Source of the DNA: Bryoerythrophyllum caledonicum
Lineage: Eukaryota; Streptophyta; Bryopsida; Pottiales; Pottiaceae
Length of the DNA stretch: 64,000 bases
NCBI GenBank assembly: GCA_963971425.1
Contig: OZ020516.1
Span: forward strand, 17,410,593-17,474,592
Direction of reading: 5' to 3'
Both the position numbers and the translations under genes were made by a program. Shown here one piece after another: positions 10,931 through 64,000 of this stretch. The stretch's first letter is position 1; the number at the start of each line of letters is the position of its first letter. The notes beneath the pieces were generated by a model. The model was not told the DNA's origin, ran no database searches, and was given only the letters and a program-made list of their open reading frames with translations.

Positions 10931-11237
10931 CAGTGTCTTGCAAAACTGAGTCAAGTTTTGGTAATTCGAAATTCAATTACCAATGTAGGAAAACTGGCAA
11001 TAGATTTGCACAAATCATAAATTGCACAAGATAGCAATTTCAGTGGGCTACAATTTGATGCAAAAGAAATTTCTTCTTACATTCATATGTACAAGAAAAT
11101 TACATTCGAAGGAAACTGTGTCTCTTGACTCAGTTTTGCATGCCATTGAGGACTCATGAGCCAAGACATTTGTTTTGCATGCCACGAATGCATTGAGGGT
11201 GTATGAGCTCAAATTAGCTTGGGCATGTTAAACTACA

Positions 11238-12029
11238 ATGTTGCAATACTCCATGCACATTGTTAGTATACTTTTATTACTCAACATGGTGTACTTGAAG
11301 GAGCTTTCTGCAAGCGCTCGTACAGACCTTGATAACTCTATTTTGGTGAAGTTGCAAGCTGGTAGATCCACAAGGGATGTAGCAAGTGAGTTGCAGGTGT
11401 CTCAAAGTCATGTTGCAAGACTTAGAAGGAAGAGATTGTCTGATATTCCTATTGGTAGTGGTGGTAGACGACAAGTATTAACAGATGCTCAAAAGAGAGC
11501 ATGCATTAGAGCTGTCACAGCATGAGGATTTGAAACTACGACATATGCTACCCAACATGTACGTGAGGAATGCCAAGTTACTGTAAGTGTTGATATGGTG
11601 AGAAGGGTCTTATGTGCAGGAGGATTCGGATCAAATGTGAAGCAGAAGAAACCGAAATTGAACCAGAGACACATCAAGGACCGACTTGAATTTGCTAGGC
11701 ACCATGAACATTGGACCATTCATGATTGGGAGCACATCATCTTCTCTGATGAGACAAAGGTAAATCGATTTTGCTCCGATGGTCGCAGTTGGTGTTGGAT
11801 TTGCAATGAACGATCTTGAGATTTAAAAGAAGTGAAACAAACTGTAAAGTTTGGTGGTGGTTCTGTCATGTTGTGGGGTTGTATGACATTTCAAGGCCCA
11901 TGCATGTTTTGTAGAATTAAAGGAAGAATGGATCAACATCAGTACAAAGAAATTTTGCAAAGAGATTAAATGTACACGGTGATGGCATATGATCTTGATC
12001 CTTCGGAATTGATATTTCAGCATGACAAT
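11238..12029 (+). pseudogene. Tc1-like transposase, N-terminal two thirds (broken)
   Basis: This would be the DDE transposase of the 10931-15913 element. The N-terminal helix-turn-helix region reads KLQAGRSTRDVASELQVSQS, followed by a second DNA-binding part. The first catalytic Asp lies in HIIFSDETKVNRF near 11750. GGGSVMLWGCMTFQGP follows, and the second catalytic Asp is in FQHDN, right at the LTR-type insertion. In-frame stops are TGA at about 11523, TGA at about 11817 and TAA at about 11966, so it is inactive. The remainder continues at 15386. Confidence 0.85.
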
Positions 12030-15997: not shown

Positions 15998-16356
15998 GGG
16001 GCTGTTTACACCCGAAGGTTTGGGTTGGAGCCCATGAACACAAGTGGTACCCCGCTTGAAGGATGAAACCATTGTAAGCGGGGTACCTTCCACCAAACAA
16101 CGGAGTTCTAAGTGGGTTGTGTCCCAAAGTTTAGGTGTAAACCCGAATGGAAGGGTTGTGGCCCATTGTGCACTTGGGCTGAATTTCTAAGTAGTTGAAT
16201 GAAAACGGGCTCTTTCTAGAAATACCCCGTAGTGAAAGAATTTCTTGTATTCTACATTTGCCTACATCTTTGTGTGCTGTTTTGTTCTATCTCTCACATT
16301 TTGGGCCATTTTTTTCACTTTTTGGCATCATGGATAGAAGAAAATGAGCCCTAGTA

Positions 16357-17736
16357 GTGCTAGCTATGTATTGGTCCTATTATATGTTGATTCAACATGT
16401 TTTGAGCATGCAAGCCCTCATGATGGGCTTTGAATTGCAAAATTCAGCATTGCTTATAGTTTTATGTGAATTGTGGAATACGAGGGAGAGAGGTGTGTGG
16501 AGCATTCAGAGGCAAGAGGGTTTTTTTGATAGGCATTTGATGGGTTCCTACACGAAATTAATGTTTAAACGGAGAACTAGAGTGTCCCACTGTACTTTCC
16601 AATTTCTTTGTGTAGAATTGGGTCCATTTCTAAAGAAAAATGATACAAAATTTAGAAATGCAATTTCTATTGAGAAAAGGATAGCAATCTCTCTAATCCG
16701 TCTTGGAAGTGGAAATGGATTGCAAATTGTAGGTGATTTATTTGGAGTAGCAAAATCTACCGTTTCAGGCATAGTGAGACAATTTTGTAGTACGGTGAGA
16801 TTACATCTTCAAAAAAAATTTGTGAAGTTTCCGAATGAATTTAAATTACAAAAATTAGCAAGGGACTTTGAGGCATTACATGGAATTCCTTATGTAGTAG
16901 GTGCCATAGACGGGTCTCATATACCGATTTTAGCACCAGTAGTTGGAGGTGAAGATTACTATTGTCGAAAATCTTTCCACTCCGCATTACTACAAGGTAT
17001 AGTTGACACAAATTGCATTTTCTGGGATTATGAATTTGGATGGGCATGAAGCATGCACGACTGTACGGTCTTCAAGCTTACAAAAGTAGGTAGAAAATGC
17101 ATTGAAGGAGGATTGTTACCATACAAGTTGATTGGAGATGCGGCATATCCAGTGAGGCCGTGGATATATTCACCTTTTAAGGGAGGGGTTGATGTTTGTC
17201 TTCCACCGTATAAAGCTCATTGGAATTTTATTCAAAGCTCTACCCGAATGTGTGTAGAACGTGCTTTCGGAATTCTAAAATGTAGGTGGCGGATAATTAT
17301 GAAACGTATGGAGTGTCCTCTGAAATTTGTGCCGGATGTAGTTGCTACTTGTAATGTTTTATACAATATTTGCATCCTTTCAACGGATAGGTTTGATCGG
17401 GAGTGGATCCAAATTGGTGAAGATGACTTAGACCAAAGAATTAATGAAGGAGAAGTAGCTACAGGGCAAGAGCTTAGAGGCGAATAGGTTGCAATTGTTG
17501 AAGTAAGAAGAAGGATAGGAATTGGAAGAGATGAGCCAATTAGAATTGTAGAAGAGGACGAAGGTGAAGCTGCGAAGGCGTTTTTAATCAAGGAAAATGA
17601 AGAAGAGTCTGTATTGCTTCGAGAGGCAACTGATTCACATATTTGCATAGCAAAAGCACTTTGGGAGTATCATATGCGAGAAGATGCTACAATTATGTTT
17701 GATGATTCATATAGTGAATCTGATATGAGCACCTAG
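16357..17736 (+). pseudogene. PIF/Harbinger transposase (two in-frame stops)
   Basis: This is a cut-and-paste DDE nuclease of the HARBI1/PIF type. The N-terminal half has the family HTH region (FRNAISIEKRIAISLIRLGS and LFGVAKSTVSGIVRQF). The catalytic motifs follow in order: first Asp in VVGAIDGSHIPI, second Asp in LIGDAAYPV, Glu in RMCVERAFGILKCRWRI. The frame breaks at TGA 17047-17049, inside GWA-stop-SMHDCTVF, where the family has Gly, and at TAG 17485-17487. Coding then resumes in the same frame (VAIVEVRRR ... SESDMST) to TAG 17734. There are no frameshifts. It could be reactivated only in trans, so it is most likely a recently dead copy. Confidence 0.88.
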
Positions 17737-18353
17737 TCCTAGATTTTTTGTACTAGTGCTGCCATATGGCTTTCCATCATATGCAACAATGAGGAAGTAG
17801 ACTTGAAGCTATCAATCATGTCTTTGCTGTTTTGAATTGAAGCTTCTAGATATCCTTCTAGCCTATCTGCCTTGCTTTTCTTCTGAATTGTTTGATGTTT
17901 CGATGCCTTGTCGGGTGTTGGTGACTCCATGACACTCTCTTGAGCACTTGCTGGAATTTGATTTCTTACACTTGCCCTTGTTCCATTCCACAAGTCCATG
18001 TGGTCAAACCACTTATTCTGTTGGTGGCGGTTGTTTCCTGAAATATCATATAGGCGCTTGTCATTCTTGTATTCGGTAAGTAAGCTTCTGTGCTTCTTTT
18101 TGCAAGATAAAGCAATTCTAGTACATCCTCGAATTGCTGCTGCCATACGCACCTGTACCTTCAACCAAGCATTTTGACCTTGACCAAAAAATATGTAAGT
18201 TGTTAGTATTGCTCATGTACAATCTCCATGCAATAGGAGTGCTCTAAAATGCTCAAAAACATCATTAAAGGCCTGAAAATGGACTTGAAAATGTTAGGAC
18301 AGCACACAATAAATCACAAAAATAGTAGTATAGGGAGCCTTTTTATCCAACAT

Positions 18354-46269: not shown

Positions 46270-48119
46270 TAACACAATGGACTAACACTCTTCTAAATAA
46301 ACTAGCCACCCTTCATTTATCGACCCGAACGCCCATAAACACAAAACACCCTTACACAAAATTCATTGAAGAAAATCAAGATTTATACATCATAAAGAAT
46401 CAATACAAAAAAAACTATACAAATTCATCCATAATTGAAACCCACGGCTAACACAATTATAGACAATACAACAGACAATACAACAATATTTTCCATTCCT
46501 CTACAATGAATTAATTAAAAAATCACTAAAATGCTTCAAACCTATACCAGAATACTCACATCCACCTCCACCACCTCCATACATCCCCCCTCTAATTTTG
46601 AACACAAACACAATAGACAATGTCTCATATATTCTAACATGGAACGCTTCATCCCTCAACACTAGCCTTCCATGCATCCAAAACCTCACCACAAATAACA
46701 ACACCCCTCATGCCATGATCACCATCTAAGAAACTAAACTCACATCCACAAAGTCTACTAAATATATACAATGCATTTTTCCTAACTATAAACTCATCTT
46801 TAATAATACCCATGCACTCACACATTGTATCCAACAACACCACCCATACACACCTTGCAAATGAGGCCTTCTCACACTAGTACATAAATCCTACGCATTC
46901 CCTGGCAACATTACCAAAATCTCCACCCCAATGCACATAACTCCATATCTACAAATTCTAAAATAAAAAACCAATTGCTTCAACCATGGCTAATACTTCA
47001 CATTTACATGCCATCCCACTCAGTAGACATTAGATTAATCACAAATATCAAAAATAACATTACTACTCAAATTAACAATCATCCAAACCATACATACTTA
47101 CTATGTGGTAATTTTAATAGAGACGTAGCATTAATCAAGAGACAACACAGAAATCGCTATTCCCACCACAACCCATTGACCAACAATGGCGTAACTTCAT
47201 TGACAACCTAAATTTTAAATATATACCTACAGACACTAGACACTCCAGACAAAGTGGATATGACTATAAAGTCCTAAGTTTAATAGTTAGTTGGGGACTT
47301 GAGTTCTTCTTCCTAAGTTTAATAGACTGCTTTTACATACTCAATTCCAATCATCCACATTACATTTGCACAATGCAAACAAAAATCATTCTAAACTCAT
47401 ACCACTCACCAATCCAATTAAATATCCCTCAAAACACACTCATTAGTAGAGCACCCGTAACTCCAAACAACAATAATGTTCAAATACTTAATCTCATCCA
47501 AGAACCAATGCACAAGATTTCAACACAATGTTTTTTGAAAACAATTCTATTCAAATTGATTCCCTTATTAACTATCTAAAAAACAATGATCAACTCTTTC
47601 AAACTCATTGGCTGGAAACTTGCAACATCCTAAACACAATAATAAATAACATCTCTAACACCCTGGAGAAAACATGTAAAGCCCCACCCATTTGAACATC
47701 CAAACAAGGAGGCTACTTACCACAAAAACTCTCCCTAAAATGGAAATAACACTTAAACACCTATTATACTATTTGGAAAACAATTAGAAATGTAAATATA
47801 ACCCACTATGGTTTACCCACCCCATTTGCCACGAAGTACAATCCTTCCATTATTCCACCCCCACCACCCCCCCCCCACACAAGAGCACATGAATTGCTAC
47901 ATGATATTGCATTAATTGCAGAAGAGTCTAACAAACAAGCCAGGAAAATAACTACCAAGTATACCAAAGAAAATATTATCAGAAAAGCCACCTCTAAATA
48001 CAAACAATTATATGAAACTAGCCCAACAAAAATCAATAGAAGAGTCTTCAAAAACAGTGAATCTTCACCAGTAGACTTTATCACTAACCAGTATAAGAAC
48101 ATCTTAAACACGCAATTAA
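46270..48119 (+). pseudogene. LINE copy B ORF2, N-terminal APE endonuclease part
   Basis: The APE-type endonuclease motifs appear in order on the plus strand. ILTWNASSLNTSLP lies near 46637. The catalytic-Glu motif near 46727 reads I-stop-ETKL, with TAA where Gln is expected. IYMPSHSVDIR (about 47000) and CGNFNRDVAL (about 47103) follow, where the family has GDFN. LNSYHSPIQLNI (about 47395) corresponds to the SDH region. A linker follows to DFITNQYKNILNTQ at 48110, where the 13.6 kb element interrupts. There are many stops and frameshifts, so it is a dead copy. The sense strand is A/C-rich and very G-poor. It continues at 61744. Confidence 0.75.
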
Positions 48120-48145
48120 GCAATTATGCACTTAGCCAAGTGCAC
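48120..48145. repeat. Left terminal inverted repeat of the 13.6 kb element
   Basis: The tip includes TGCACTT-AGCC-AAGTGCA, a perfect 7 bp stem with a 4-base loop. The terminus can therefore fold on itself as well as pair with the other end. Confidence 0.8.
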
Positions 48146-48827
48146 TGGTTGGTGGTAGAAAGCCGCAAGTTATTTGCTCATAACTTTTTTTTAAATCAAA
48201 ATTTGGCAAAATTTTAGTATGTTTTTTGTCAAATTTTTTTGGTGTTTGTCGTATCATACATTGGCATCTTTATGTTCATATCAGTAATATATTTTTTACA
48301 TTCGCTACCTTTTTTTAGAAAATATATGATTTCTACTCTAGTTTGCAAATCCTGCTACAAAATTATGATCATGTGCCCAAAGAGATTATAAATGTGTTAT
48401 GAGTTATTATAGGATTTTAGAGTACTGCACTACAAATACAATGTGTAAGAGATACAAAAATATATATGCAAATTCCTAAGACAGTGTAAAGTTCCTCACT
48501 ATATTTTATAATGCAAAAACATACATAATCAAGCAATTCCACACTATTGTTGAGGAATTCTAAAATCAAACATATCATATGGACCACCCAATATATAAAT
48601 ATATACCACCAACCGAACGATAGACACATCTCAAACTGCATTATACTAACGTACTTGCCACCTAAACTGCGTGCATGCTCTACTAAGTATATAGCTCCAC
48701 GGCTCACAGCTCATCTGCTGGCGGAACGACTCCCTCCACGTGTCCAATGGCACTACCTACCATAGCGGATAGTTCATGATCCTCCACTGGACGATCTCCC
48801 ACATCTTCGATACCAATGGACGCACAC
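48146..48827. other. Subterminal non-coding region of the 13.6 kb element
   Basis: AT-rich, with no supported frame. It lies downstream of module C and would hold its terminator or polyadenylation signal. Confidence 0.5.
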
Positions 48828-50783
48828 TCAACAAATCGGTAATTGCCAGGAACACCCTCCCGCGTATGCCTTACCCTTGTCATCATTATAGAGAAAGCCA
48901 TCCTTTGCATTGAAGGACATCTCTCGCTCTGATGAGAAGGCCCTCTGAAATGCAATGATGTCCTCAGATACGCTAGATCTTGGAATGGGAGGCAAACCTG
49001 GTCCGGTATCACTCTGAGTACCTCCGAACGTCTCTTGTGTCTCCGATACAGGCTCTGATTGAGGAGGCATCGAAGGCTGTCGAATCCTCCTCTGCACCGA
49101 AAAAAATTCACATGAATCCAATCCTTCTTCCTCCATCTCCAACCTAGGACCATCAAATGTACGCCCCCGTCCTGCCCCTGCCGCCAAACTAACATCTACT
49201 ACACTTGTATCTTGCATCCTCTCTGTAGGTGTTGCAGACGTCGCCCTTGAAGTATCTCCCACCGTCCGCTGTGTTGATGGAATTCTCTCTCCATCCTCAT
49301 CGGCGTCTGAATCACTGCCAGATGAAAAATCTTCAGTGGTACCTGAACGTGGCAATCTCTCATGTAAACCACCTCCATCCTCATTGTCCTCTTCATTCCT
49401 CACTCCACCAACCGCATCTTCGGTCTCAGGTACGATGTTGCAACCAGTACTTGTTCCACCAGTCCTGACCAACAGTTGTCCTTGGAAATTGTCGGACAAC
49501 TCATTGTACAGAAATGAAACTCTGTGTGTACAATCGTCAATGATGAAAACTTCAGATCCCTGGAAATCTCCTTCAAGGATCGTGGGAATGGCCGTAGATA
49601 TGTTACACGCCACTAAACCCCAACCACGGGGCAAGTATGAGCCCACTAGTCTTGCGAGCTCTGATGGAGATCTCTCAAGTGAATCAACTTCAGAAGGTTG
49701 GCGTGCCTCACTCCAGTGATCCAAGAATATAAGTGGAAGTGGAACGTCTCCAGAAACATAGTTTGGGCCAGGAGATGTACCCACAGGGTGCTGCATACAA
49801 ATCACAACATCGCCAATCGGTTGTACTACTTGCTCCAGACGCTCATTCTCTGTAAAATCAAGAGCATAGGGATTAACCGAGTTGGGATCAAAAGCCCAGC
49901 ATCCACGTCGCATAGTACATCCCTCTGGAAGCTTCACCTTCGTGAAAAACTCCTCATTGGCATACACAGCCGTTGGTAACAAGAAGATGACGTTCCATCG
50001 TTCAATATTTGCCATCCATAATGTCAGCTGTGCAAAAGCTGCGGATAATTGGGCGTCTCCCCAATGACCATCTCCATGCCTCCCACCGCCACGTCGACAA
50101 TCAATCACCCACAAACATGGTTTCCCCAACTCTATGTAGTCGGTGCGGAATAATCCTCTTCTACACCGAACCGGAAGAAGATTCTCTGTGTCGCTCTGCC
50201 CTGGCCTCTTGACTTCCATCTGCCATTCCCAATTAGCAGTAGCCAATTCTCCCACATCCACGGACAATCCAATGTATCCACGCCCCCCTGCTGCAATGTC
50301 ACCATAATGAAACCTGATGGAAGGGGGGATGAGGTAGCCTATGTCTTCCAATTTAGACACCTTCCCCCGCATAGGAGCACTCCAAGCCTTTTTTGTGGCA
50401 GCATTCAAAAGCTTCCCAAAGGTATCAAGTTGTGCACTACTCCTCGGAAAATACTTCGCTACACGGATACGAAAGAACTCTTCCATGGAATCAGGTGTAC
50501 TTTCCTTGTTCTCCACCATCAACCAACGGATCGAATTCATCACAGCTTCTGGTCTCTGATATCGGTCAACCACACCGGCAATCGTACGAGGATGTGGATT
50601 CTTGTCTTTTACACCGTCGAAGTAATATGCTTGAGAAGGTCTTACTCCATCATCCCTCACCGGCTTCGCTGCAGCAGACTTTGCCAACTGAAGATAATAT
50701 GGATTCGGAACCCTACCTAGAGGCCTCAACCAATTCTGCGTCATCTCCTTTTTTGTTGGTCGTACGTCCACATTTGGATCCAG
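48828..50783 (-). CDS. Module C of the leftward frame: possible PD-(D/E)XK nuclease with disordered tail
   Basis: Positions count from 50771. This is 647 residues of open frame ending at TGA (48828-48830). Up to about residue 150 it is of unknown type. A possible nuclease core follows: Asp172 in LSVDVGELA, then ANWEWQMEVKRPG with Glu186-x-Lys188, LWVIDCRR, and a Gln-rich helix DAQLSAAFAQLTLWM. Spacing and order suit PD-(D/E)XK enzymes. Residues about 440-600 are Ser/Thr/Glu/Asp-rich and likely disordered. No good ATG exists at the left edge; the frame begins directly after TAG 50784-50786 with LDPNVDV and is in phase with module B. I do not recognise the family by name. The nuclease idea is a motif-level inference. 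It is certainly a real coding region, given 1.9 kb without a stop. Confidence 0.6.
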   Translation of the reverse strand: MDPNVDVRPTKKEMTQNWLRPLGRVPNPYYLQLAKSAAAKPVRDDGVRPSQAYYFDGVKDKNPHPRTIAGVVDRYQRPEAVMNSIRWLMVENKESTPDSMEEFFRIRVAKYFPRSSAQLDTFGKLLNAATKKAWSAPMRGKVSKLEDIGYLIPPSIRFHYGDIAAGGRGYIGLSVDVGELATANWEWQMEVKRPGQSDTENLLPVRCRRGLFRTDYIELGKPCLWVIDCRRGGGRHGDGHWGDAQLSAAFAQLTLWMANIERWNVIFLLPTAVYANEEFFTKVKLPEGCTMRRGCWAFDPNSVNPYALDFTENERLEQVVQPIGDVVICMQHPVGTSPGPNYVSGDVPLPLIFLDHWSEARQPSEVDSLERSPSELARLVGSYLPRGWGLVACNISTAIPTILEGDFQGSEVFIIDDCTHRVSFLYNELSDNFQGQLLVRTGGTSTGCNIVPETEDAVGGVRNEEDNEDGGGLHERLPRSGTTEDFSSGSDSDADEDGERIPSTQRTVGDTSRATSATPTERMQDTSVVDVSLAAGAGRGRTFDGPRLEMEEEGLDSCEFFSVQRRIRQPSMPPQSEPVSETQETFGGTQSDTGPGLPPIPRSSVSEDIIAFQRAFSSEREMSFNAKDGFLYNDDKGKAYAGGCSWQLPIC

Positions 50784-51953
50784 CTATTTCTTCCTCGCCA
50801 TGTCCTTCCACTTGTCCTCTTCCTCCTTGCTGTAAAAGAGAATGCCGTCTTCGTAGTCCTTGCATACTTGAATGATAGCTTCGAAGCAGTCATTGCTCGG
50901 ATTCCATACATGATTGGTCAGATCCTCCATGTTTTTGGCCAACCTCTTCACCGTGACAACTCCATCCCCCTTGGGCAACTTATGCACTGCACTTGCCGCA
51001 CTCACCAAAGCAACTGCCCTGCGTGCATCGTCCGCACGTAGTGTGCTATCAGGCCTTCCGTATAGATCCCAAATCTGACGGATCTTCCTCAAATCCTCCT
51101 CCATGGTAGAATATGAATGTCTCTGGAACTCCGCCACGTTGATCCGCGCAGACTTCTCAATGTAAAAGCGACGATCATCATACACCACAAAAGAGGCCTC
51201 CCGCCGCTCAAACGTGTCTAGATACTCGTTTAAAGGCATAGTACCATCTCTCCACTGCTGCTGTGCAAACTTACAAGCTGCTACTATATGTTGCCCATCC
51301 ACCGGTTCCCAAATGATATGATCTTGAAGCCAAGAATACTGGGATCCCATGGCACCTTGTGCAGAAGCACTCCCGTGTGCAATGAACATGCGCTCAAACT
51401 CTCGTGCGGTACCTACCAACGAAAATGACAGCTCTTCCTTCTCAACGACACCATCATCGGTGGTAGTATGCACGATGTATCTGATCGGTCGAAGTACCAA
51501 TCTACTCACCCGAGTCGCGGATTCTGGGTCTCGTAAGCGGTTGAATACTTCTCTGACCCTCTTCTGTGATAAAACCCGGTGGTTAATTTCCGGATTCTCT
51601 ACAGAGACAATGCGTTCCATGTGTGCCATAAACACAAAATTCCCCCACACTGATCCTTTCGCAATCTCCTCTGTTGTAAGCACTGGTGCTTTTAAATTCA
51701 TAGGAGTTGGAACATCCTGTGGTATCTCTGCATTGTCTTCAAAATCCTCTGGTATATTGTGTGGAAGGTTGTGAAAATCTTCTTCCTCCGGCGCCATGGC
51801 TGACAAATCAGCTGAATCTCCCGGTGTAGATGTAGGGGCCCTATCATGACCATCAGACGTCCTGAGCCCCGACCTAGGAATCCTGCCACCAGATCTTGCA
51901 CTTCTCCCAATCAACCTCCTCCCACTTGGATCCAAACTTGATGGGCCTTCTCT
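50784..51953 (-). CDS. Module B of the leftward frame: unknown protein (383 residues)
   Basis: The frame follows TAA 51954-51956 in phase, begins REGPSSLDPSGRRLIGR and ends DKWKDMARKK before TAG 50784-50786. There is no ATG near the left edge. The first internal Met candidate is in LSAMAPEEEDFHNLP (about residue 47), so it may be expressed as part of a larger product. The N-terminal 45 residues are Arg/Gly/Ser-rich. The remainder is mixed alpha/beta with few cysteines: VWGNFVFMAHMERIVSVENP, DHIIWEPVDGQHIVAACKFA, FYIEKSARINVAEFQ. I recognise no domain. Coding is supported by length and normal amino-acid usage in a region where random frames are short. Confidence 0.55.
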   Translation of the reverse strand, partial: REGPSSLDPSGRRLIGRSARSGGRIPRSGLRTSDGHDRAPTSTPGDSADLSAMAPEEEDFHNLPHNIPEDFEDNAEIPQDVPTPMNLKAPVLTTEEIAKGSVWGNFVFMAHMERIVSVENPEINHRVLSQKRVREVFNRLRDPESATRVSRLVLRPIRYIVHTTTDDGVVEKEELSFSLVGTAREFERMFIAHGSASAQGAMGSQYSWLQDHIIWEPVDGQHIVAACKFAQQQWRDGTMPLNEYLDTFERREASFVVYDDRRFYIEKSARINVAEFQRHSYSTMEEDLRKIRQIWDLYGRPDSTLRADDARRAVALVSAASAVHKLPKGDGVVTVKRLAKNMEDLTNHVWNPSNDCFEAIIQVCKDYEDGILFYSKEEEDKWKDMARKK

Positions 51954-52646
51954 TTAACCAGAAGCTACATCACTGTCAACACGTCGTGGCCTCTTCGTAG
52001 GACGTCTAGTGGTTAATGGAGGATTCGGTAATGTCTGTACCTCAGAAGTTGTGGTGGGATGTTGGCCTCCACTTCCTCTCCCCCCCTCCAGTGGTCGCCA
52101 ATCCAGTTGCAACGGCTCAGCAAGAATTCGATAAACTTCTGTTTCTTCTGGTTCCGCTGGTGGGGCTTGAGTCCTCGCACGTGATGGGTCCCTCTCCCGA
52201 AATGCTTCATATCTAATATGTTCCTCCATAATCTTCTTAGCCTTCAGCACCATCTCCGGTGATAACGCTAAACAGGCTAAGACGTTGTTGTGTCTAGCTG
52301 TACGTACCGCAAGAGAGATGTTCAACCAAAACGTCTGCAATGATTTGAGGAATTTCACCTGACCTGGATTTTGAAGAAGATTCAAAGGGACAGGTGCAAG
52401 AAGCAACTTCTTCGAAAGGGAAGTCTTCACCTCCGATTGACCTGGACCCACTGCGCAAGTAACGTATACCATATCATCACGTCGAAGAGTGATTGCCTGG
52501 ATTTTGCCAAAACTCTTCCCCAACGCCGATTTACGCTTCCCCAGCTCAAAGGGATAATCCGTCACCCATAAGAAGGGGCTCAACTCATCCACTTCCGCGA
52601 TCCACCAGCCGTGGCTCTCCCAGATTCTATCAATATTTGGTGGTGC
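51954..52646 (-). CDS. Module A of the leftward frame: unknown protein (~230 residues)
   Basis: The most natural start is Met at 52646 (MAPPNIDRIWESHGWWIAEV); the frame is open a little further up to 52679. It contains SPFLWVTDYPFELGKRKSAL and MVYVTCAVGPGQSEVKTSLS, then a helical part (FWLNISLAVRTARHNNVLAC). The C-terminus is basic, proline-rich and likely disordered (RRPTKRPRRVDSDVASG), with a nuclear-signal-like KRPRR. It ends at TAA 51954-51956, but the same frame continues into module B. The family is unknown. It sits at the head of the leftward transcript, about 5.3 kb from the divergent transposase-like gene. Confidence 0.55.
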   Translation of the reverse strand, partial: APPNIDRIWESHGWWIAEVDELSPFLWVTDYPFELGKRKSALGKSFGKIQAITLRRDDMVYVTCAVGPGQSEVKTSLSKKLLLAPVPLNLLQNPGQVKFLKSLQTFWLNISLAVRTARHNNVLACLALSPEMVLKAKKIMEEHIRYEAFRERDPSRARTQAPPAEPEETEVYRILAEPLQLDWRPLEGGRGSGGQHPTTTSEVQTLPNPPLTTRRPTKRPRRVDSDVASG

Positions 52647-52679
52647 CATAACGCAACACTCAAAAAACCTGTATACCAT

Positions 52680-53117
52680 TACAAAACGATAGTCACTGTT
52701 AGTATGGAATAAGATTCTTCTTTCATATATAGATTTTTTTCACAAAGGCATGACAATTACATTAATAGATGATCATTTCACACGAATAGAAAATGTGTAT
52801 TGATTTAGGGTAAGACCTTGATTTTAGGGACAATTGTTTTAATATATTACACTTTTTTCCTATTTGCAAAAATTTGTGTACGTAGAACCAATACTATGGA
52901 TAATTTGAAAGTTTAATATGTTAAGCAACAAAATGCATTATCTAAATCCTTCTAGAAACACTTCAAAGTTGTTCATTTTAATTGAAGATCAACTATTGAA
53001 AAATTAATCCACTTCCATCTCCAACCCTAAATTCCCATTCAGTACTACTTCTCTTCCATTAAACACCCTTCATGTACTTGAAAAAATGTATGAACAAATA
53101 ACGAACATCATGATTAA
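52680..53117. other. Upstream region of the leftward frame
   Basis: AT-rich and non-coding. It should hold the module A promoter or the proximal part of it. No motif is certain. Confidence 0.4.
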
Positions 53118-54046
53118 CCCCAAAGGTACCGTGACGATTTCAAAAATAAACTTCAAAATCCTTGGTTCTAGTGCAATGTATAAAAGAAAAAAACATCAAC
53201 TTTTATCTCTACTTTTGACCGTAGGATCTAAATTAAAACTTGTTAAATAACCCATTCACAAAATTCCATCAACTTTGACTGCCCGGATCGAAAGATTATA
53301 GTGTTTGAAACAAAACAAATGGTTCATTTTATTCCCTATGTTTACTGGATCAAAAGACTTTGACTTCACTTCGTGTCAAATTTTTGCACTCCACAAGATC
53401 TAAATCCAATATCAATGTGTTAAGCATGATCCTTTAAGTTTTGGTGAAATAGCATATTAATCCAAGTCAATCATTTTCACACATTGTCACACATTTTCGG
53501 CCAAGGTACCAAAAAAACTTCCACATTTCCACATAAAACTTTGAGATCTTCATATCATTTACTTTTGATTTTTCCTATGGCATTATGTGTTGTAACCCAC
53601 CGTATTGACCATTTGGATTCTCATTTAAAACAATATCAAGTGCACAAAAATATATAACGCGAATTGAGATTTTTTAAACCTCCACTCATTGCGCGATTTT
53701 TTTGAATATGCTACACTCCTTATCTACCTCTAAAATTTGGTATGTAAGGAACTAACATCATGCCTAACATTATGGTAATTTACTGAGACCTTTTTTAGTG
53801 CAAAAATTCGACACAAATTGAAGTCAAAGTCTGCTGATCCAATAAACGCAGGGAAGAAAATGAACATTTTATCTACTTCAAACATTATAATCTTTCAATC
53901 CGTGCGGTGAAACTTTATGAAATTTGTTATGCATATTACTTAATAAGTCGTTAATGAGATCCTACGGTTAAAACTACCAAAAAAATCTTTATTTTTTCTT
54001 CCTTGCTAATTGCACAAAAACAAGCAATTTTAACGATTTTTGGTTG
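53118..54046. mobile_element. 0.94 kb family, two partial copies head to head (f1 plus, f2 minus)
   Basis: 53118-53435 is the first third of a plus-strand copy (TTAA then CCCCAAAGGTACCGTGACG, GCCCGGATCGAAAGATTATA). 53436-54046 is a minus-strand copy containing CTTTCAATCCGTGCGGTGAA. Together they form a long imperfect inverted repeat that could fold back. Neither outer end of f2 is preserved. Confidence 0.65.
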
Positions 54047-54242
54047 AGATATTCTCCACATCATTTATTGACCAAGGTACTGTGGGTATCAATAGTGAGG
54101 GTATCACCACCAGGGTATGACTTCCTTAGTACCAACACCCGGTTATCATCAAGGTATCAACTTAGGGTTTCGGATGTGGGTATTGTATTTTCGGGTATCA
54201 ATGACGGATATCAATGCATTGCACCTTTTGGTAGTCGTATGA

Positions 54243-54264
54243 GGGGTGTGCGCGCGCACACCCC
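54243..54264. repeat. GGTGTGCGCGCGCACACC palindrome, left copy
   Basis: Perfect 18 bp alternating purine-pyrimidine palindrome. The second copy lies at 54825-54842, so the pair brackets the telobox-rich segment and the assembly gap. Confidence 0.85.
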
Positions 54265-54563
54265 AGGCAGTAGTTGTGAGGGAGGCTGAGTGTGAGAGCG
54301 TAGGGTTTGGAGAGAGACAATGAAGGTATGGGAGAGAGGGGAATGGAGGGGGAGTGTGAGAGAATATGAGGGTGGGAGGGAGCCGCCGCGGCTAGGGTTT
54401 GGGTGGGAGGAGAATGGAAGGCGAATGTGAGGACAATGTGAGGACAATGTGGGTGAGTTTAGGTGTAAGAAATGAGGGTTTGGGTGTGAGAAAGCAGGTC
54501 ATGTGTGTATGGTGAGGGAGGCCAGCCTGCGCGGCAGGCCGCCTTCACTGCCATAGAGCCTCC

Positions 54564-54763
54564 NNNNNNNNNNNNNNNNNNNNNNNNNNNNNNNNNNNNN
54601 NNNNNNNNNNNNNNNNNNNNNNNNNNNNNNNNNNNNNNNNNNNNNNNNNNNNNNNNNNNNNNNNNNNNNNNNNNNNNNNNNNNNNNNNNNNNNNNNNNNN
54701 NNNNNNNNNNNNNNNNNNNNNNNNNNNNNNNNNNNNNNNNNNNNNNNNNNNNNNNNNNNNNNN
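54564..54763. other. Assembly gap (200 N)
   Basis: Exactly 200 N, so a placeholder of unknown true size. Open frames spanning it are artefacts. The gap lies in G-rich repeat sequence that is hard to assemble. Confidence 1.
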
Positions 54764-54824
54764 GTGAAGATGAAGGATGTCTTGGAGGACGTTTTTGGAG
54801 ATGAAGGATGGAGCTACAGGTGGA

Positions 54825-54842
54825 GGGTGTGCGCGCGCACAC
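54825..54842. repeat. GGTGTGCGCGCGCACACC palindrome, right copy
   Basis: Identical 18 bp core to 54243-54264. The context GAGG on one side and CCTC on the other also mirrors the left copy. Confidence 0.85.
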
Positions 54843-55020
54843 CTCTGGTCTACGAGCTTCACGGGATCATCTAGGACTCTACGGGAAAGCGGCCACTAGG
54901 GTTTGACTTTTTAGGGTTTGGGTTATTGGTTGCGGCGGCTAGGGTTTGGGTTGTTGGTTGCGGCGGCTAGGGTTTGAGTTAGGTTGGCGATTTTTTCTAC
55001 ATGGCTGCTAGGGTTTAGCT

Positions 55021-55984
55021 TTGTGGGCCGGTGTGCATAGTTGCAGTCACAGATTAATTGTCACACTATGGACTACCTCACCGTTTCAGTTCTCAGTGGT
55101 TTTGAAGCCAACATTTCAGTACTATGTTGTGGGCTGCACTCAGTAGTTAATGGCTATTATCATGTGTAAATACTGGACTTCTAATGGATTTGAAATTTTA
55201 GAGATATTGAAGTTGGTGTATTTGTTTCTGTGATCAATGATTGATATTGCCTCACCTCATTCTGACCTATACTTTGAGTTTCCTAGTTTTGATTCTACAA
55301 TGAGTCAGAGTTAGAGAAGCTTACCAAGCTCGTGTGATTTGCCTTGAAGCTCCACTTGCCTCCTCCAATCTACACACCACACAAAGCTAACTGTAATTAG
55401 TAAATAAACTAATGAAGACACTTGGTTTTGATGTTGCGATTCCAGGAGAGCTCACCTTTGAAAGTGGGAAGAGAAGTGAGCAATTAGGTTTGTACGGAAC
55501 CTTATATGCATGTTGAAACCTTGTGCCTCAGGTTGAATAGTCCAATTTTTACTTTTGGACTTTGGAAATTTTACTTTGTTTTCTATTTGTTTAAACTTTT
55601 AACTTATTATATTAAATTATTCTGGTATATAAAATATATAGATACTTGGGAGTTTTCATCACATAGTTTCAACAAAGCACTGAATAAAATTTATGCAGGT
55701 TCCACAAGTAGGAAAGAGTGGAAGAGCATGTCTACCAACAGTGGGGGAATGGTGATTTAATGTTAAGCGCCATCAAATATCGGTGTTTGTATCGCAAATA
55801 CTTGCAACGTATCTTGAGGTGAGAAATTATACTTGCAACTTATTTTGAGGTGAGAAATTACTTTGTTATTCATTTTTGAAATTTTTCCCGATCAATCTTT
55901 TGTTTTGTGTTGTTAGAATGAACTACATTTGGAATTAGAAATCCTTTCTTGTATTAGCGGTTGTAACCCTTTCAATGGTGTCAA
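55021..55984. other. Unassigned DNA within the 13.6 kb element
   Basis: No recognised domain. The frame at 55506-55760 is hydrophobic and unsupported. A 14 bp word GAGGTGAGAAATTA is duplicated at about 55815 and 55847. Confidence 0.4.
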
Positions 55985-56607
55985 TAATAACAAGTAATAT
56001 TATTTCTACATTAACCCAAGTCAATCATTTGCCCACACGATCACGCATTGTAAGGCAAAGAACCAAAAAAACTTCTTCTTTTCCACATAAAACTTAGAGA
56101 CCTTTATATTAATTTAATTTTATTTTCTCTCTCAAATGATGTGGTATAAACCTTCTCTTTCACCATAATACATACGGATTCTCATTCTAAGACATGGTTA
56201 CGTCACAAAAAAATAAAGCGCAACTTGGTAAGTTTTGAATCTCTACCCCTTCTACAATGGTTTTGAATATGCTACACCCCTTTTAAACCTCTAAAAATTC
56301 ATGTACAAGAATACAACATCATCATTAATATAATGGTAATGAACTTAAACATTTTGTAGTGCAAAGACTCGACACCAAGTAAAGTCAAAGAAAATTTCCC
56401 TCAACCTAGGAAAGAAAGTTAACCGTGTTGTCTACTTAAAACTTTCATCTTTTAATTCGTGTGGTTAATCTTTGTACTTAATAAGTATGAACTAAGGTCG
56501 TATGCTTAGACGTATCCATAAAACCTTTTTGTTTCCAACTTTACTCATGGCACTAGAATGAGCGGTTTTGAAGAGATTTTGTTGTGAAAATGCCTGTCCT
56601 TTAGGGA
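55985..56607 (-). mobile_element. 0.94 kb family, copy g1 (truncated)
   Basis: Minus orientation. It ends (plus strand) CCTGTCCTTTAGGGA before TTAA 56608-56611. It lacks the part beyond the AACCCAAGTCAATCATTTG region. Confidence 0.7.
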
Positions 56608-56611
56608 TTAA

Positions 56612-57531
56612 TCCTTAAGAGCCCAAGTGTACGTGGGGGGTACGTTTTAGATTTTGGGTAGGTTATTAAAAGTCTAAACTAAATATTTAAATAAAAAATA
56701 TCTTATTCTAGATTGTCCCGGATAAGATCTCCATGGAGATATTTTTAATTTGATTTTTGGATTCATGGTGTGAAAGTTAGTACCACTGAAAGTTAGAAAT
56801 GGGGACTCCGGGGAGCTCTAAAATTTTGCTGAGAGTCTCTATTGACATTGAGATTTTCCATACAAGTAGATAATATTACCTTCTTTGAAAATTAAAAAAA
56901 ATCTTGTCTATAGTGTAAAAAATAATTTTAATTGAAGTCTAACATTTTTACACATTTCGGGCAAGCGGGGAAAAAAACTTATTATTTTCTACATAAAACC
57001 TAGAGATCTTCAAATTTTTCACTTTTTATTTTTTCAACAAGAATATGTGACGTAAACCTTCTTATTGACCGTTTGGAATATCATTCTAAAGTACATTAAA
57101 TTCTCAAAAGAATATATTGTGAATTGACAATTTTTGAACATCCACTCCTTGCACACTTGTTTTGAATATGCTACACCCCTTCTCTACTTCTGAAAATTGG
57201 TGTAATAGGAACTAACATCATGCTTACCACAATGGTAAAAGATTTAGACCTTTTGTAGTGCAAATATTTAATACAAAGTGAAATCAAAGTCTGCTCATCC
57301 ACTCAACGCAGGGAACATAATCAACCATTTTCTTGACTTGAAACACTATAATCTTTCAATCCGTGTGGTCAAAATATATGAATTTTTATGAGTATGTTAC
57401 TTAGTAAGTCTTGATGGAGATCCTATGATCAAAAGGATAAATTTAAGGTTTTATTTCCTTCCTTATCCATTGCACTAGAATGAATAATGTTGAAGTGTTT
57501 TTGGTGTGAAATTGTCACGGGCTTTTAGGGG
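56612..57531 (-). mobile_element. 0.94 kb family, copy g2 (full length)
   Basis: Starts TCCTTAAGAGCCCAAGTG after TTAA 56608-56611 and ends GGGCTTTTAGGGG before TTAA 57532-57535. TTAA on both sides supports the 4 bp duplication. The GAGCCC/GGGCT inner motif pairs the two ends. It is back to back with g1, sharing one TTAA. Confidence 0.78.
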
Positions 57532-57535
57532 TTAA

Positions 57536-57840
57536 GTAACATACTCACAAAGTTTCATAAAATTAACCGCACGGATTGATTTATTTTTAATTTTATAGTA
57601 GACAAAACTGGTTCATTTTTTCCCTAGATTGAGTCGATTACCGGAATTATACTTTACTTGGTTTCAAAAGTTTGCGATACATAGGGTCTAGATTCATTAC
57701 CATCATGTCAAGAATGATATTAGTTCCTTGTACACCAACGTTTAGGGATAGAGAAGAAGTATAGCATATTGGAAGACACTTTGCAAGGAGTTGACGCTCT
57801 TCAAATATTAAATTTTCTCATTTCAAAGAAGTTGATCAAA
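57536..57840 (+). mobile_element. 0.94 kb family, copy g3 (partial)
   Basis: Plus orientation, starting inside the family at GTAACATACTCACAAAGTTT and including CCGCACGGATTGATTTAT. It ends about 125 bp upstream of the transposase-like start codon, so this family now forms the proximal upstream region of that gene. Confidence 0.65.
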
Positions 57841-57964
57841 AGGTTTAGTATCATCATCATATGATGAACACTAAATATGTGATCAGAAACATATCTTCTA
57901 TCAGATGAATGGTGCTTTAGAGGTTAACAATTAGTATATGTATTTTGACTAATGTGCAACTATA

Positions 57965-60265
57965 ATGTTTTTTTTCTTCTCAATAGTGATAATGGAGAGC
58001 CGCACGATTCAGACTCCTTTGATACGGCCACACATCGAAAGGAACAATATGCCTTCTAATAGCTCTGTGGGGGCCCGATTAGTACGAGCAGCACGTGCAA
58101 GGCAAATTCAACAAAGATCTGTTGGGATGATGACTTCTGAATTGGAAAGGGCAGTAGAATTGCTTTCAGAAAGAGGAGATGTGGTGGGCTTAGCAACCAG
58201 GGAGCATGCATTCGAAAGTCGCATGGAATTGAATGGGTCGAAGTTGTTCCCATTCGAGGTGGCGGTGCGTATCACTAGGGTAGATGATACGTTGCATTGG
58301 ACCGGAGAGATTGTAGGAGAACGCCTTGGCATGTGTGTGGGCTTGATCATTCGTTGGCATCGATCTTTGCTACGTGTAGTGGCAGTAGAACCTGATATCA
58401 CAGGTGTCCATGGTGACATTGGATCACAGATAGCGCCTACAGAAGTGATGGCCCCAGAATTTGATTTTCCTGAGTTCATCAACACACTAGGATCCACCCA
58501 GAGGTCTCGACGTAGTAGTCATGCTTCAAACACCATAGATGAAAATTCGCCATTTTCCCAATCTACTCCCTCAAATATCCGAGATTTGTCCCATGTAGAT
58601 GGATTTGCTTGTGTTAGACCAACACGTCGTCCATATTCTATGCAAAATAGGAGAAGGAGAGATTCAAGGGAGCCATCATTGACAGAAGCTGCACCATCTA
58701 AGGTATCGCTTAGAAGCGTGCAAATTGCAATGGCACAAGGAGGATGCAAACGCAATTGTTTGAGGGACGTTCCAGCAAGGTATCTATTGGACATGCGATA
58801 TAATGCATGGGGTAATGAGTTTTCAGTTCGAAGTACGTGGATGAGACAGATGCTGGTTTCTTTTTACACTAGGACGGAAGGAACTCGTCGAGACAAGTTT
58901 GTAACAAAGTTAGATGGGAAAGAAGTTTGCAATGCTTGCTACGCTCTTGGGGTTGGATATTCACAAAGGCGCTTTAAGCAATTGAAGAAGGATTGTCTAA
59001 TATATGGAAGAGTGACATCGATTCACGGCAATACCCTTTCAGATCCGATAAGAGAGACTACTAGAATGTCTGTAGCAGAGGCTTGCTTTAAATCGTTTGT
59101 CGATGAAGCTGGTTGTCCTCAACCTCATCGTTGTATTCGCTGTAAGAGTGACAACGAAGTGGTGACTCTTATTCTCCTTCCTATGAATACAGCCAAATTT
59201 GATGTATTCAATTACGTGAACGAGGAGGTCAAGAGAATTTGTAATGGGGAAACCATTTCTATGAGTTCGTTCCGGAGGATGTGGCGCATGAAGTATCCCC
59301 ACGTTCAGGTACCTCCATTCTCGAGATTCTCAAAGTGTTATCATTATTGGGAGTATAAATGTGCCATGGAAGGAACCACCAATGCGGATGCAAGGATAAA
59401 GATAAAGGAGTTGTTTATGTTGCATCTGCGCAACCAGATGGAAGAACGTAGGCATTATTGGATATTTAAGAGGTCGTGTTATATTAGCCCTGAGTTGTAC
59501 ATGTGCATCATAGTGGATGGCATGGACCAAAACACGACCATGGTACCGAGGATGCGTCAGACTGTGAAGAACATTGAGCACCGGTTTGTGAAGACCCATC
59601 TGTGTGGTGCTCTTGTACATGGGATTGGTTTATATTGCGACGTGTGGTTTGGGGCTCACCACAAACACGATAGCAATCAAGTCGTGAGTACATTGTTGTA
59701 CGTGATTGGAGATGTGCTGCGGAGGAGGGGCTTTTTGCCACCAACATTGCGAATTCAGGCCGACAACTGCACGCATGAGAACAAAAATATTTATATGTTT
59801 GCTCTATGTGCTACATTGGTGGGATTGGGGTTTTTCCAGGAGGTGGAACTATCTTTTCTTATAGTGGGCCATACCCACGAAGATATTGATCAACGCTTCA
59901 GTTGTATATCAAATACGTTGAAGAGGTCGGACGTCGACTCGTTGAAGGAAATGATTAGTCTTATAGAACGAGGAACATCCCCTACGGAGGCATTTGTTAA
60001 CGCCCGGCTGCTAGAGAATGTATGGGATTGGAAATTGTTCATAACTCCTCACTTACTGACAGGTCAGGATTCATTGGTGGGCATAACATTTCCGCACCAC
60101 ATGCGATTCTACATGGACAATCGGGAAGGGACTCGTGAGGTTCGAGTACAACACAAGCATTATTGCAAGGATCCATGGGGACCGGAGGCAGGGACGAAAA
60201 CTTTGAGGTCGTTGCCAAATAGGGATGAGCGACCATCGTTTGCGGAAGTATTTGCAGCGGACTAA
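57965..60265 (+). CDS. Transposase-like protein, DUF7869-type, module D
   Basis: This is a 766-residue frame. ATG 57965 opens it, but MESRTIQTPL at 57992 is an equally good start because the first nine residues are hydrophobic. The N-terminal third is Arg-rich with a Ser/Thr-rich linker (about 170-240). A Cys-containing block follows (GKEVCNACYALGVGYSQRRF near 318, RCIRCKSDNEVV near 392), probably for DNA or zinc binding. The core has MCIIVDGMDQ (Asp518), LRIQADNCTHENKN (Asp600) and VGHTHEDIDQRF (Glu639/Asp640/Asp642). The D...D...E/D order suggests an RNase H-fold transposase. I recall this family as DUF7869 (name from memory), common as orphan proteins in algae, oomycetes and animals. It is the best candidate for moving the 13.6 kb element. 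TAA 60263-60265 stops it, but the frame continues in module E. Confidence 0.75.
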   Translation: MFFFFSIVIMESRTIQTPLIRPHIERNNMPSNSSVGARLVRAARARQIQQRSVGMMTSELERAVELLSERGDVVGLATREHAFESRMELNGSKLFPFEVAVRITRVDDTLHWTGEIVGERLGMCVGLIIRWHRSLLRVVAVEPDITGVHGDIGSQIAPTEVMAPEFDFPEFINTLGSTQRSRRSSHASNTIDENSPFSQSTPSNIRDLSHVDGFACVRPTRRPYSMQNRRRRDSREPSLTEAAPSKVSLRSVQIAMAQGGCKRNCLRDVPARYLLDMRYNAWGNEFSVRSTWMRQMLVSFYTRTEGTRRDKFVTKLDGKEVCNACYALGVGYSQRRFKQLKKDCLIYGRVTSIHGNTLSDPIRETTRMSVAEACFKSFVDEAGCPQPHRCIRCKSDNEVVTLILLPMNTAKFDVFNYVNEEVKRICNGETISMSSFRRMWRMKYPHVQVPPFSRFSKCYHYWEYKCAMEGTTNADARIKIKELFMLHLRNQMEERRHYWIFKRSCYISPELYMCIIVDGMDQNTTMVPRMRQTVKNIEHRFVKTHLCGALVHGIGLYCDVWFGAHHKHDSNQVVSTLLYVIGDVLRRRGFLPPTLRIQADNCTHENKNIYMFALCATLVGLGFFQEVELSFLIVGHTHEDIDQRFSCISNTLKRSDVDSLKEMISLIERGTSPTEAFVNARLLENVWDWKLFITPHLLTGQDSLVGITFPHHMRFYMDNREGTREVRVQHKHYCKDPWGPEAGTKTLRSLPNRDERPSFAEVFAAD

Positions 60266-61183
60266 CGGGAGTTGAAGGCGTTGGATGACTTCATTGCATA
60301 TAAACAAAGATGCATTCAAAGGTTGCAGCATGAGGACAAGAATCGTGAGGCAAAAGTAGAGGCTGAAAGATTGAAACTCTATTTAGCTCAATCTCCACAC
60401 AAAGATCGTAGCAATGAGCATCGTACCTCACCGTTTTGGCCTTTAGAGTTCTCGAACACCGGACCTATAGGGAGTGCATCTTTGGATGTAATGGATGGTG
60501 CAAGTGAAGAAAATCGCGAGGTAAATGTCGTAGAGCAGGTAGTGGCTATGCTTCCAAATGCCGAGGCTCGAGGATACTTTGGTTCTCGTAGAGGAAGACC
60601 CTCTAATCAAGCATTACGTAGGGCACAACGAACAGAGCGCAACTATGTTGAGGAAAGAGCCGAAGAAGGAGCAATGTATGAAGGTAATCACGATCCATTT
60701 CCACCATTTAATCCACAATCTGATATCTGTTGTGGACAATTTGTAGCCTTGAGTGTTGATAGAGCAGAGATAGAAGGCGGTGTACCATTCTATGTAGGGA
60801 AAGTGATTGAGGAAGGAAAAAATCGATGGAGACTTAAGATTAAGGTTTGTTGGTATTGGCCCAGCATCCAAAGGGTGGTTGTTGATGGACATGGGTCTTC
60901 TGCACAGCGGTATGCTAATTGCATGGACTCAATCTGGGAGCCATCTAGGGAGAGCCATAGTTGGGTAGAGAAAGATGCATGCATTTTTTCATGGGCAGAC
61001 TCTCCGGAAAGAACCATGTCAGGGGCCGGCGGGTGGAGAAAGCGCAATGTATTTGGAGTGTAGGTTGAAAGCAGGATTCGCATTCTTCAATCGGCAAAGG
61101 CTCACATCCTGCAATATATTGCAATGCAAACCGAAGCTATCGATGACGACCGTTTGCAAGCAGCCCTAAATTCTATGGAGTAG
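60266..61183 (+). CDS. Module E: in-phase continuation of the transposase-like frame
   Basis: The reading frame runs straight on from TAA 60263 as RELKALDDFIAYKQRCIQRL, a coiled-coil-like helix. An AT-hook-like RRGRPSNQALRRAQ lies near 60590. A C-terminal SH3/chromo-like domain follows (CCGQFVALSVDRAEIEG, PFYVGKVIEEGKNRWRLKIK, VCWYWPSIQR). TAG at 61061-61063 interrupts, then a well-formed helix continues in the same frame (VESRIRILQSAKAHILQYIA to LQAALNSME) to TAG 61181-61183. Sense-looking protein on both sides of each stop means either two nonsense mutations or codons that are read through. The first Met is not near the left edge, so independent translation is unlikely. Confidence 0.6.
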
Positions 61184-61739
61184 ATAGTGTGCCTTTTTGA
61201 GAGTATACTAGTTGTGTATGGTAATTGATATATAGTGTATGTGTAAGAGTAGTATATTCTAAGGGTGATGTAAGACGTTATGTCATTAATCCTTTAGAGT
61301 AAAGTTGTGTTTACTATTGGTGCTAAGTCCAATTGTTGAAGCATCTATATTTAGTTGCACCATTGTATGCATTATGTACTACGTAGAATATATTTTAATC
61401 AACTGCCAACCCTTGCATAAAGTATGTTTTTTTGTAATTACGCCTGTTTATATACTACAATCCTTCAAATCTATCTTTGAAATATTGTGTAACTATATTA
61501 AATACATATTTATCTAGTATTAACGAGGGGCCACCACAAATTAGTTGAAAATGCCAAAAAATTGCTTCCAATATGAACATCCATGATTGTACGTAATATT
61601 GTTGCAGAAGCTCAATTTTTTTTCCTTTGAAAACATTTTTTTTCTTTGATTTTTTTTTTTTTTTCAATTTTGCCACTTTTGTTCGCAATGGCCGCCGTTG
61701 TACCCAAGTGCACTTTTAAATGGCCAAGTGCATAATTGC
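61184..61739. other. Right subterminal region and terminal inverted repeat of the 13.6 kb element
   Basis: AT-rich, with long T runs at about 61616-61665. The inverted repeat occupies about 61706-61739, including CCAAGTGCACTTTTAAATGG and GGCCAAGTGCATAATTGC. Confidence 0.6.
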
Positions 61740-61743
61740 TTAA

Positions 61744-64000
61744 TTGCATGTTCTTAACTAGCCCCAAAGACATCGCAAATGAAATTTACAATCAACAAAC
61801 GAAAAACATTAGACCTCATGTACCTAAATGTAACTATTTACTAGACCACCCAGTTACATGTACATATGTAGGAAGACAATATCCATGGCATGACCTTGAC
61901 GGCTTCATTATAGATAAATGTGGTGACCCACAAATATCACTACACACCTACTTCGATCGTGCTACATACAACACATGCCTCAAAAATCTAGGAAACAATA
62001 AAGCCCAAGGACTAGACCACATCCCAACTCCATATTAAAACTAATGCCACTAACATTTCATGAACTTCTCTCCCTATTCTTTTCTCACTGCTACAAACAA
62101 AAACAAATTCCCGCATCATGGAAAACTAGTTCTACAGTACTACTATATAAAAAAGGTGACCCCTCAAAACTTCCCAACTATAGACCAATTGCTTTAGCCA
62201 ACACTATCTATAAACTTTTCACAATTACATTCACATCCATATTATCCTCATATGGTTTAAAACACCAAATCTTTCATGATAGCCAAGCATGCTTTTTTGC
62301 GGAAAAAAGTACCGCTAGACCATAATAGCCGCACTTGAAGATGCACAATTGACAAACCAAGATATATATATTTTATATATTGATTTCAAAAATGCATTTG
62401 GATCAATTGACCACACAAGATTACTAGCAATTACCCCACCGACTAGTTGGAAACATCTACTCTAACTCCTCCACCTCGTTGGAGAACAATTTGGAACAAC
62501 CCGCCCCATCCCCATCCAACGAGGAACCATACAAGGTGGTACCCTAAGCCCATATCTATTCATCATTATCTTAGAACTACTACTAAGATGGATGCAAAGG
62601 AAAAATAACGGCTACACCTATGGAACATCACAAGTAACCATAAATTGGCCGCTTATGCTGATGACCTTGCTGCCATTGCCGGTAAAATTAAATTATTACA
62701 AATCCAACTACATAAAATAAACAAATTTTGTAATTGGTCCGGTATGGACGTTGGAACCCAAAAATGTGCCACCACAGGATGTCCAAACAAATCCAAAATG
62801 AACCCTACCGCATTCAAAGCACTTATGCAAACAACCAACATAAACTACCTTAACCAACCCATCTCCATACTACACCAAAACAAACCATATGTATATCTAG
62901 GCTTAAATCTTGTTCCCTCACTAAAATGGAAGATACAAATTCTTATTACTACAACTAAACTTACCAAACAATGCAAAGAACTAATAACATGCCCAACCAC
63001 AATGAAACAAAAATTAAAAATGGTAGACACAATACTTAGACCCGGAGTAGCATATAGTTTCTATGCAGTTCCATATTTTATGCCTGCTATTAAAAAAACT
63101 AGACGAAAAAATCATAGCCATAAAAAAGTCCATTTGTAGCTTCCCTAAGTGCATGTCAAATATCATTGCCCAACTCCTAAAAAATTTATTTGGACTAGAA
63201 GCTTTTCCTTTAAAAATGCCTATCTCCAATGTTTAGGAGAACAAGTCCAAAATGCACTCAAAAGCACATTCACAGACTTCATATTAGAACCCTCACTTTT
63301 GGAACAAATGTGGCTACAAGAAACCCAAAATAACACAAGAATTAACCAACACCTCTCCCAAAAACTTTTACAATTATTTTTTCAATTAACATTACCACCT
63401 TAAAACAAACTACACTATCAAATGGAACACACATTATGAACCATAATGACTTCAAGACATTCCATTCTACACCCTCTAAACTAATAAAAATTGCTCTTAA
63501 TATTGCCCAACAACTATTTTCCTACCCCCATGGCCCAATACATGCGCCTCATCATGCCTTGTACACCCAAATTCCTACACCCTAAAAGACGCATGTGTTA
63601 CGACCAACAATAACACCCATTTAAAAAACAACACCTCACCAATTCATCCCCCCCAACTTTGCCGCACCCATCCTGTCCTCCTCCCCTACACATATTAAAC
63701 AAACCCATCCACATACCCCATACAAATACCCAATACAAATCCTACTTAGAAATCATACAAGCACACTACCCTGAAGAGCAATTTTGTGACTCAAGATCTC
63801 TTACTCCAACCATAATCATTCCCCTCTTCAACATCCACAAAACCATATGTAATCCCAAAAAAGATATTTACACATTAAAAAACACCATCCAAATTAATGA
63901 AGATCATGGACTGTATATATATGAAGACAATGGGAGACATCTAATCACTATTTCCATCACTAGACTCCAATGGCTAAGGAACCAATACCATGATAAACTA
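61744..64000 (+). pseudogene. LINE copy B ORF2, reverse transcriptase to right edge (partial)
   Basis: This continues the LINE interrupted at 48119. RT motifs are clear though spread over several frames: NNKAQGLDHIPTPY (about 62000), QIPASWKTSSTVLLYKKGDP and NYRPIALANTIYKLF (62110-62220), LYIDFKNAFGSIDH (62375), RGTIQGGTLSPYLF (62523), and the catalytic AYADDLAAIAG (62650). A thumb and connection region follows (KPYVYLGLNLVPSLKWKIQI, 62880). The last 280 bp align with copy A (about 5530-5770 reversed), so RNase H and the C-terminal endonuclease should follow beyond the window. It contains many frameshifts. The coding strand is A/C-rich and G-poor. Confidence 0.88.

Follow-up and report, generated by a model that had tools for sequence, protein, structure and literature searches.

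A 13,646-bp insertion lies in a stretch of 64,000 nucleotides, hereafter the window (C3:17410593-17474592 of a 437-Mb host assembly). The element occupies positions 48107-61752, has the ends AACACGCAATTAAGCAATTATGCACTT, is bounded by a 4-bp target-site duplication (TSD), CTTA, and lies within a long interspersed nuclear element (LINE). It encodes two divergent genes, D, whose product contains the Pfam domain DUF7869, and B, whose product has no known family. The element is a terminal inverted repeat (TIR) DNA transposon, because it has TIRs, a TSD, dispersed copies and empty sites. Judged from its sequence, D is most likely a transposase of the Asp-Asp-Asp (DDD) type that would insert the element with a 4-bp stagger. 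We lean towards a high-copy streptophyte transposon in which D would be a transposase with an RNase H fold and B an accessory, working in the manner of Sola elements, and a place among the Sola elements that do not target TTAA would be its likeliest classification.

The ends were surveyed in 22 elements, the window copy and 21 from the best-scoring places, which is a non-random sample. Both ends were located in 20 of them, L063 and L065 having no left end in the stretch examined. Just outside AACACGC...GCGTGTT, 15 of the 20 elements carry an exact 4-bp TSD that varies from copy to copy (among others CTTA, CTAT, GTAT, TACA, TGGT, AATG, CATC and TTTT); permuting the right flanks among elements in 2,000 runs gave 1.2 such elements on average and 6 at most. 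The TSDs are 77% A+T, compared with 61% for the window. The sequence TTAA is found inside the TIR at all 20 left ends and at 19 of the 20 right ends. Since the variable 4-mers lie outside the TIR and TTAA lies inside it, the element has the limits given above, with CTTA as its TSD. In the window the two TIR arms are 32 nt long and 94% identical by inverted-repeat search. The original prediction had correctly recognized a near-perfect inverted repeat but set it too far inward, the true ends being about 13 bp farther out on each side.

The original prediction had also described TTAA flanks and TTAA targeting, and this is contradicted by the survey. Sola3 elements have a TTAA TSD, as do Kolobok and piggyBac, which resemble the element in being TIR DNA transposons. 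The presence of TTAA near nearly every end would suit such an element, but it is internal to the conserved TIR, the bases outside it are differing 4-mers, and in none of the 20 elements is TTAA the TSD, which rules it out as the duplicated target. Retention of a single CTTA, moreover, yields an open LINE frame, and Kolobok is described as specific for TTAA and as bearing a C/DxxH motif (PMC9587614). Membership in piggyBac, Kolobok or Sola3 is consequently very improbable.

The LINE itself offers a view of the site before insertion. LINE-like sequence flanks the element on both sides, one frame is open across the junction when the flanks are joined with a single CTTA, and a weak RVT_1 match, below the cut-off, lies at 62609-63139 in the flank; the disruption of a LINE, claimed from the outset, is borne out. 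When the joined 400-nt flank was compared with the genome, 38 of 42 matches spanned the junction at 80-87% identity (40 of 1,854 candidates scored), the other four being the two LINE halves of the window and two fragments. The junction-spanning matches are paralogous empty sites, that is, other copies of the LINE.

The family is numerous. The first 27 nt of the TIR, with up to two mismatches, occur 941 + 970 = 1,911 times in the genome, and a reversed control occurs 0 times. Eight further whole copies measure 12,755-13,923 bp, and one of these, C6a (loci L041 and L042), has both frames open. A 201-bp left-end query (48120-48320) is matched at 97-100% identity in the best 40 of 746 candidates. 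Because the copies are so highly identical we infer recent activity, and the family looks young. The spacing and orientation of the ends were drawn from the 100 genome TIR matches listed, all of them exact; among neighbours less than 30 kb apart, 27 pairs face inward, 2 outward and 2 are on the same strand. Of the inward pairs, 11 span 12.4-14.4 kb and 8 span 4.4-6.0 kb. The latter are perhaps deletion derivatives, and they suggest that the same ends are shared by at least one shorter family, possibly non-autonomous.

Two further observations concern the distribution of the element. On host contig C1 the 41 Mb between about 12.8 and 53.6 Mb hold two of the exact TIR matches listed, the rest lying at the contig ends; this TIR-poor stretch could reflect avoidance by the element or a region of another kind, centromeric or sex-linked. 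The left flank of L006 resembles, by eye, the central region of an element of the same kind, and nesting therefore seems to occur.

The product of gene D is 1,072 amino acids (aa) long in C6a. The window D frame matches PF25273 (DUF7869) over aa 540-722 with an E value of 6.8e-50 and 169.8 bits (cut-off 26), the only Pfam match among the five long frames of the window that were searched (shorter frames fell outside the search). Two long divergent frames, one of them DUF7869-like, were thus correctly described, and both are interrupted in the window copy: the D frame has two in-frame stops, 60263-60265 and 61061-61063, and the B frame has two of its own, 51954-51956 and 50784-50786, together with a frame change near 48.9 kb. 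Of the 59 D places scored in the genome (of 3,748 candidates), 30 have a frame that stays open for 1,071 aa or more and a match without stops, and DUF7869 scores above its cut-off at at least 150 places (the best 150 of 3,606 candidates). LEAFY marks streptophytes, and the 7 matches to the LEAFY SAM domain PF01698 in the host genome (best E value 1.3e-27) point to a green plant of the streptophyte lineage. Neither DUF7869 nor LEAFY was found in 14 control genomes, which, because LEAFY is missing there too, probably include no such plant. No relatives were found in one scan of bacterial/archaeal contigs and two scans of viral contigs.

Conservation within D was assessed in an alignment (A1) of the window sequence with 10 of 12 further relatives, L077 and L086 being left out, at 36-91% identity to the window; residue numbers follow the 770-aa stop-to-stop frame of the window. 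The acidic residues invariant in all 11 sequences include D522, D525, D573, D604, E609, D644 and D646, and the conserved motifs are DGMDQ, HHxHDSNQ, QADN..ENKN and VGHTH.DIDQRFS. The original prediction had proposed a catalytic motif of D518, D600 and E639/D640/D642, in a numbering four lower. Its aspartates are invariant; its glutamate, E643 here, is a serine in L083, and since it is not invariant one of the two following aspartates is the likelier third residue. Of 11 pairs of D sequences, the 7 that diverge most have a ratio of nonsynonymous to synonymous substitution rates (dN/dS) of 0.145-0.28, and purifying selection acts on D and, as the ratios below indicate, on B.

Gene B encodes a product of 1,324 aa and is a single gene in C6a. 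No match to protein B was found in Pfam, NCBIfam or the PDB sequences. Its places in the genome lack an inner stop in 19 of the 35 scored (of 2,005 candidates), and of 8 copies paired with C6a, 7 give a dN/dS of 0.19-0.37, because of which the protein is taken to be under selection and is probably an accessory factor. A D..ExK-like stretch can be picked out by eye; we did not adopt it as a sign of a nuclease, and the suggestion of a nuclease-like cargo protein is unsupported by the Pfam, NCBIfam and PDB searches.

At 24 of the 35 B places a D place lies in divergent order 3.8-7.7 kb away; this comparison used the 59 D places and 11 of the 150 DUF7869 places, and the 11 unpaired B places are accordingly not shown to be without a partner. 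In 6 of the 24 linked pairs neither match contains a stop and the D frame reaches 1,071 aa or more. The relation of TIR to domain was examined at 19 DUF7869 places on contigs C1 and C2, of which 14 were within range of the listed exact ends, on the presumption that the listing of exact ends is complete up to C2:15.3 Mb; at 10 of the 14 an exact TIR lies 1.55-1.62 kb past the DUF7869 domain. A DUF7869 protein is in this way tied to a mobile element whose ends are defined, as the original prediction had supposed, and which has many copies and a second conserved protein. These figures also bear on the idea that D is not the mobilizing enzyme and that another transposase acts in trans, with D and B as cargo. 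Because shorter TIR pairs exist, a transposase supplied in trans may be able to move the ends, but the near-fixed distance of DUF7869 from the TIR, the purifying selection on D and the lack of a Pfam match in any other of the five frames searched make it improbable that D is a mere passenger.

If D is the transposase, its catalytic residues would be D522, D604 and either D644 or D646. It would bind the TIRs and cut the element out, presumably by a cut-and-paste route, and would insert it into the target through cuts staggered by 4 bp, the resulting gaps then being filled by host repair. B would aid transposition, by binding the ends, by assembly of the complex or by countering host silencing, rather than being neutral cargo. 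By eye, a hydrophobic strand leads to D522, a second strand leads to D604, and a strand and helix follow at HTHEDID, a layout such as the core of an RNase H transposase would show, of DDD rather than Asp-Asp-Glu (DDE) type. Chou-Fasman propensities applied to the D alignment fit a strand running up to D522, another up to D604 and one before HTHED; taken as a whole this propensity prediction is weak and mixed.

The resemblance to Sola1 and Sola2 lies in the Asp-Asp-Asp pattern, the 4-bp A+T-rich TSD, the short TIRs and the large size allowed. In published accounts, Sola elements have a DDD transposase and a 4-bp TSD, are found in the moss Physcomitrella, are mostly 2-9 kb and in some cases more than 15 kb long, and have TIRs of 11-1124 bp (PMC10741241); Sola1 of Physcomitrella is tabulated (PMC9033089), and Sola2 combines short TIRs with AT-rich TSDs of 4 bp (PMC3627910). 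A 4-bp TSD like that of Sola is the duplication found, exactly, in three quarters of the surveyed elements (15/20). No Sola motif was found in the excerpts of PMC11071193 and PMC8230255.

Several results weigh against a Sola-like element moved by D. The likeness to Sola comes from published descriptions and not from sequence comparison; the element is longer than the curated Sola1 elements of bivalves, whose mean length is given as 5,445 bp (PMC10294476), and its second divergent gene of about 1.3 kaa is absent from the Sola descriptions cited above. AlphaFold2, run on the single window D sequence, gave a mean pLDDT (predicted local distance difference test) of 35.8 for residues 240-770 and 37.4 for residues 508-721, which is unusable, and the Chou-Fasman propensities place strands at about 576-587 and 612-627, where an RNase H fold needs helices. 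The D sequence found no match among the PDB sequences, and a D profile matched among them, weakly and outside the core, ribosomal L38e, ATP synthase subunit d and a cytochrome. Among D sequences the 4 closest pairs have a higher dN/dS (0.46-0.69), and for B the eighth pair (C15a) gives 0.89, on 12 differences. Five of the 20 elements lack an exact 4-bp TSD, one having a 5-bp repeat and four no exact 4-mer; in three of those four the left or the right end is altered. Lastly, 4 of the 14 DUF7869 places, L079 and L084 among them, have no exact TIR, and their ends are therefore other, diverged or lost.

Some of the same features would suit an undescribed superfamily with a 4-bp TSD, defined by DUF7869 transposases and standing outside Sola. 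Its strongly conserved D motifs, its second conserved gene without a known family and its excess over the length of bivalve Sola1 point that way, and the name DUF7869 was not found in open-licence PubMed Central papers, but the lack of a Pfam name in papers says nothing about Repbase entries, and the TSD length, the pattern of the aspartate triad, the possible size and a green plant as host are all compatible with Sola as published. A new superfamily is possible, then, and is not the likeliest reading; on balance we consider it unlikely. More doubtful still is the wider proposition that DUF7869 supplies the catalytic domain in a eukaryotic transposase superfamily, as yet undescribed and with a 4-bp TSD, whose plant members have an obligate divergent partner of about 1.3 kaa with a new fold. 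CACTA elements encode two proteins, and they resemble the element in large size and short TIRs. Those of plants (En/Spm) are described as usually more than 10 kb long with short TIRs, CACTA/CACTG termini and a 3-bp TSD (PMC10741241), whereas the present element has AACACG termini and a 4-bp TSD, and D matches only DUF7869 in Pfam.

Features of the element in the window
Feature	Position	Strand	Basis or remark
Left TSD, CTTA	48103-48106	.	same 4 bp as at 61753-61756
Left TIR, AACACGCAATTAAGCAATTATGCACTTAGCCA	48107-48138	+	inverted-repeat search
Gene B, family-less protein	48704-52679	-	open reading frames, genome copies, dN/dS
Central region between the divergent genes	52740-57952	.	without long frames; imperfect inverted repeats; 200-N gap
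Gene D, DUF7869 protein, putative DDD transposase	57965-61183	+	PF25273; 3' end set against C6a
Right TIR	61721-61752	-	inverted-repeat search
Right TSD, CTTA	61753-61756	.	flank comparison of element ends

The assembly gap in the central region (54564-54763, 200 N) falls in a GC-rich stretch between 22-nt inverted repeats at 54242-54263 and 54825-54846. An interior gap of 200 N is present in 8 of the 9 whole copies, the window copy included, and copy C8a is gapless, with CCGCAGGCC-type repeats; the gapped central stretch looks hard to assemble. Elsewhere in the window, two adjoining frames at 11232-11816 (+) resemble by eye a broken transposase of Tc1/mariner type. Matches below cut-off to HTH_Tnp_4 and DDE_Tnp_4 at 16348-17049 (+) and to Myb_DNA-bind_4 at 17739-18212 (-) possibly mark a broken element of PIF/Harbinger type at 16348-18212.

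PF25273, listed as a domain of function unknown, is attached here to defined transposon ends. DUF7869 is thereby linked to an actual transposon that looks young and has a conserved partner gene, and this link suggests a transposase role for the domain. With exact ends, a TSD and copies in hand for one DUF7869 gene, those found elsewhere can be examined as transposases or as domesticated transposases. Since the family looks young and a quarter of the linked B-D pairs (6/24) have stop-free matches, its activity and its need for B would be directly testable.

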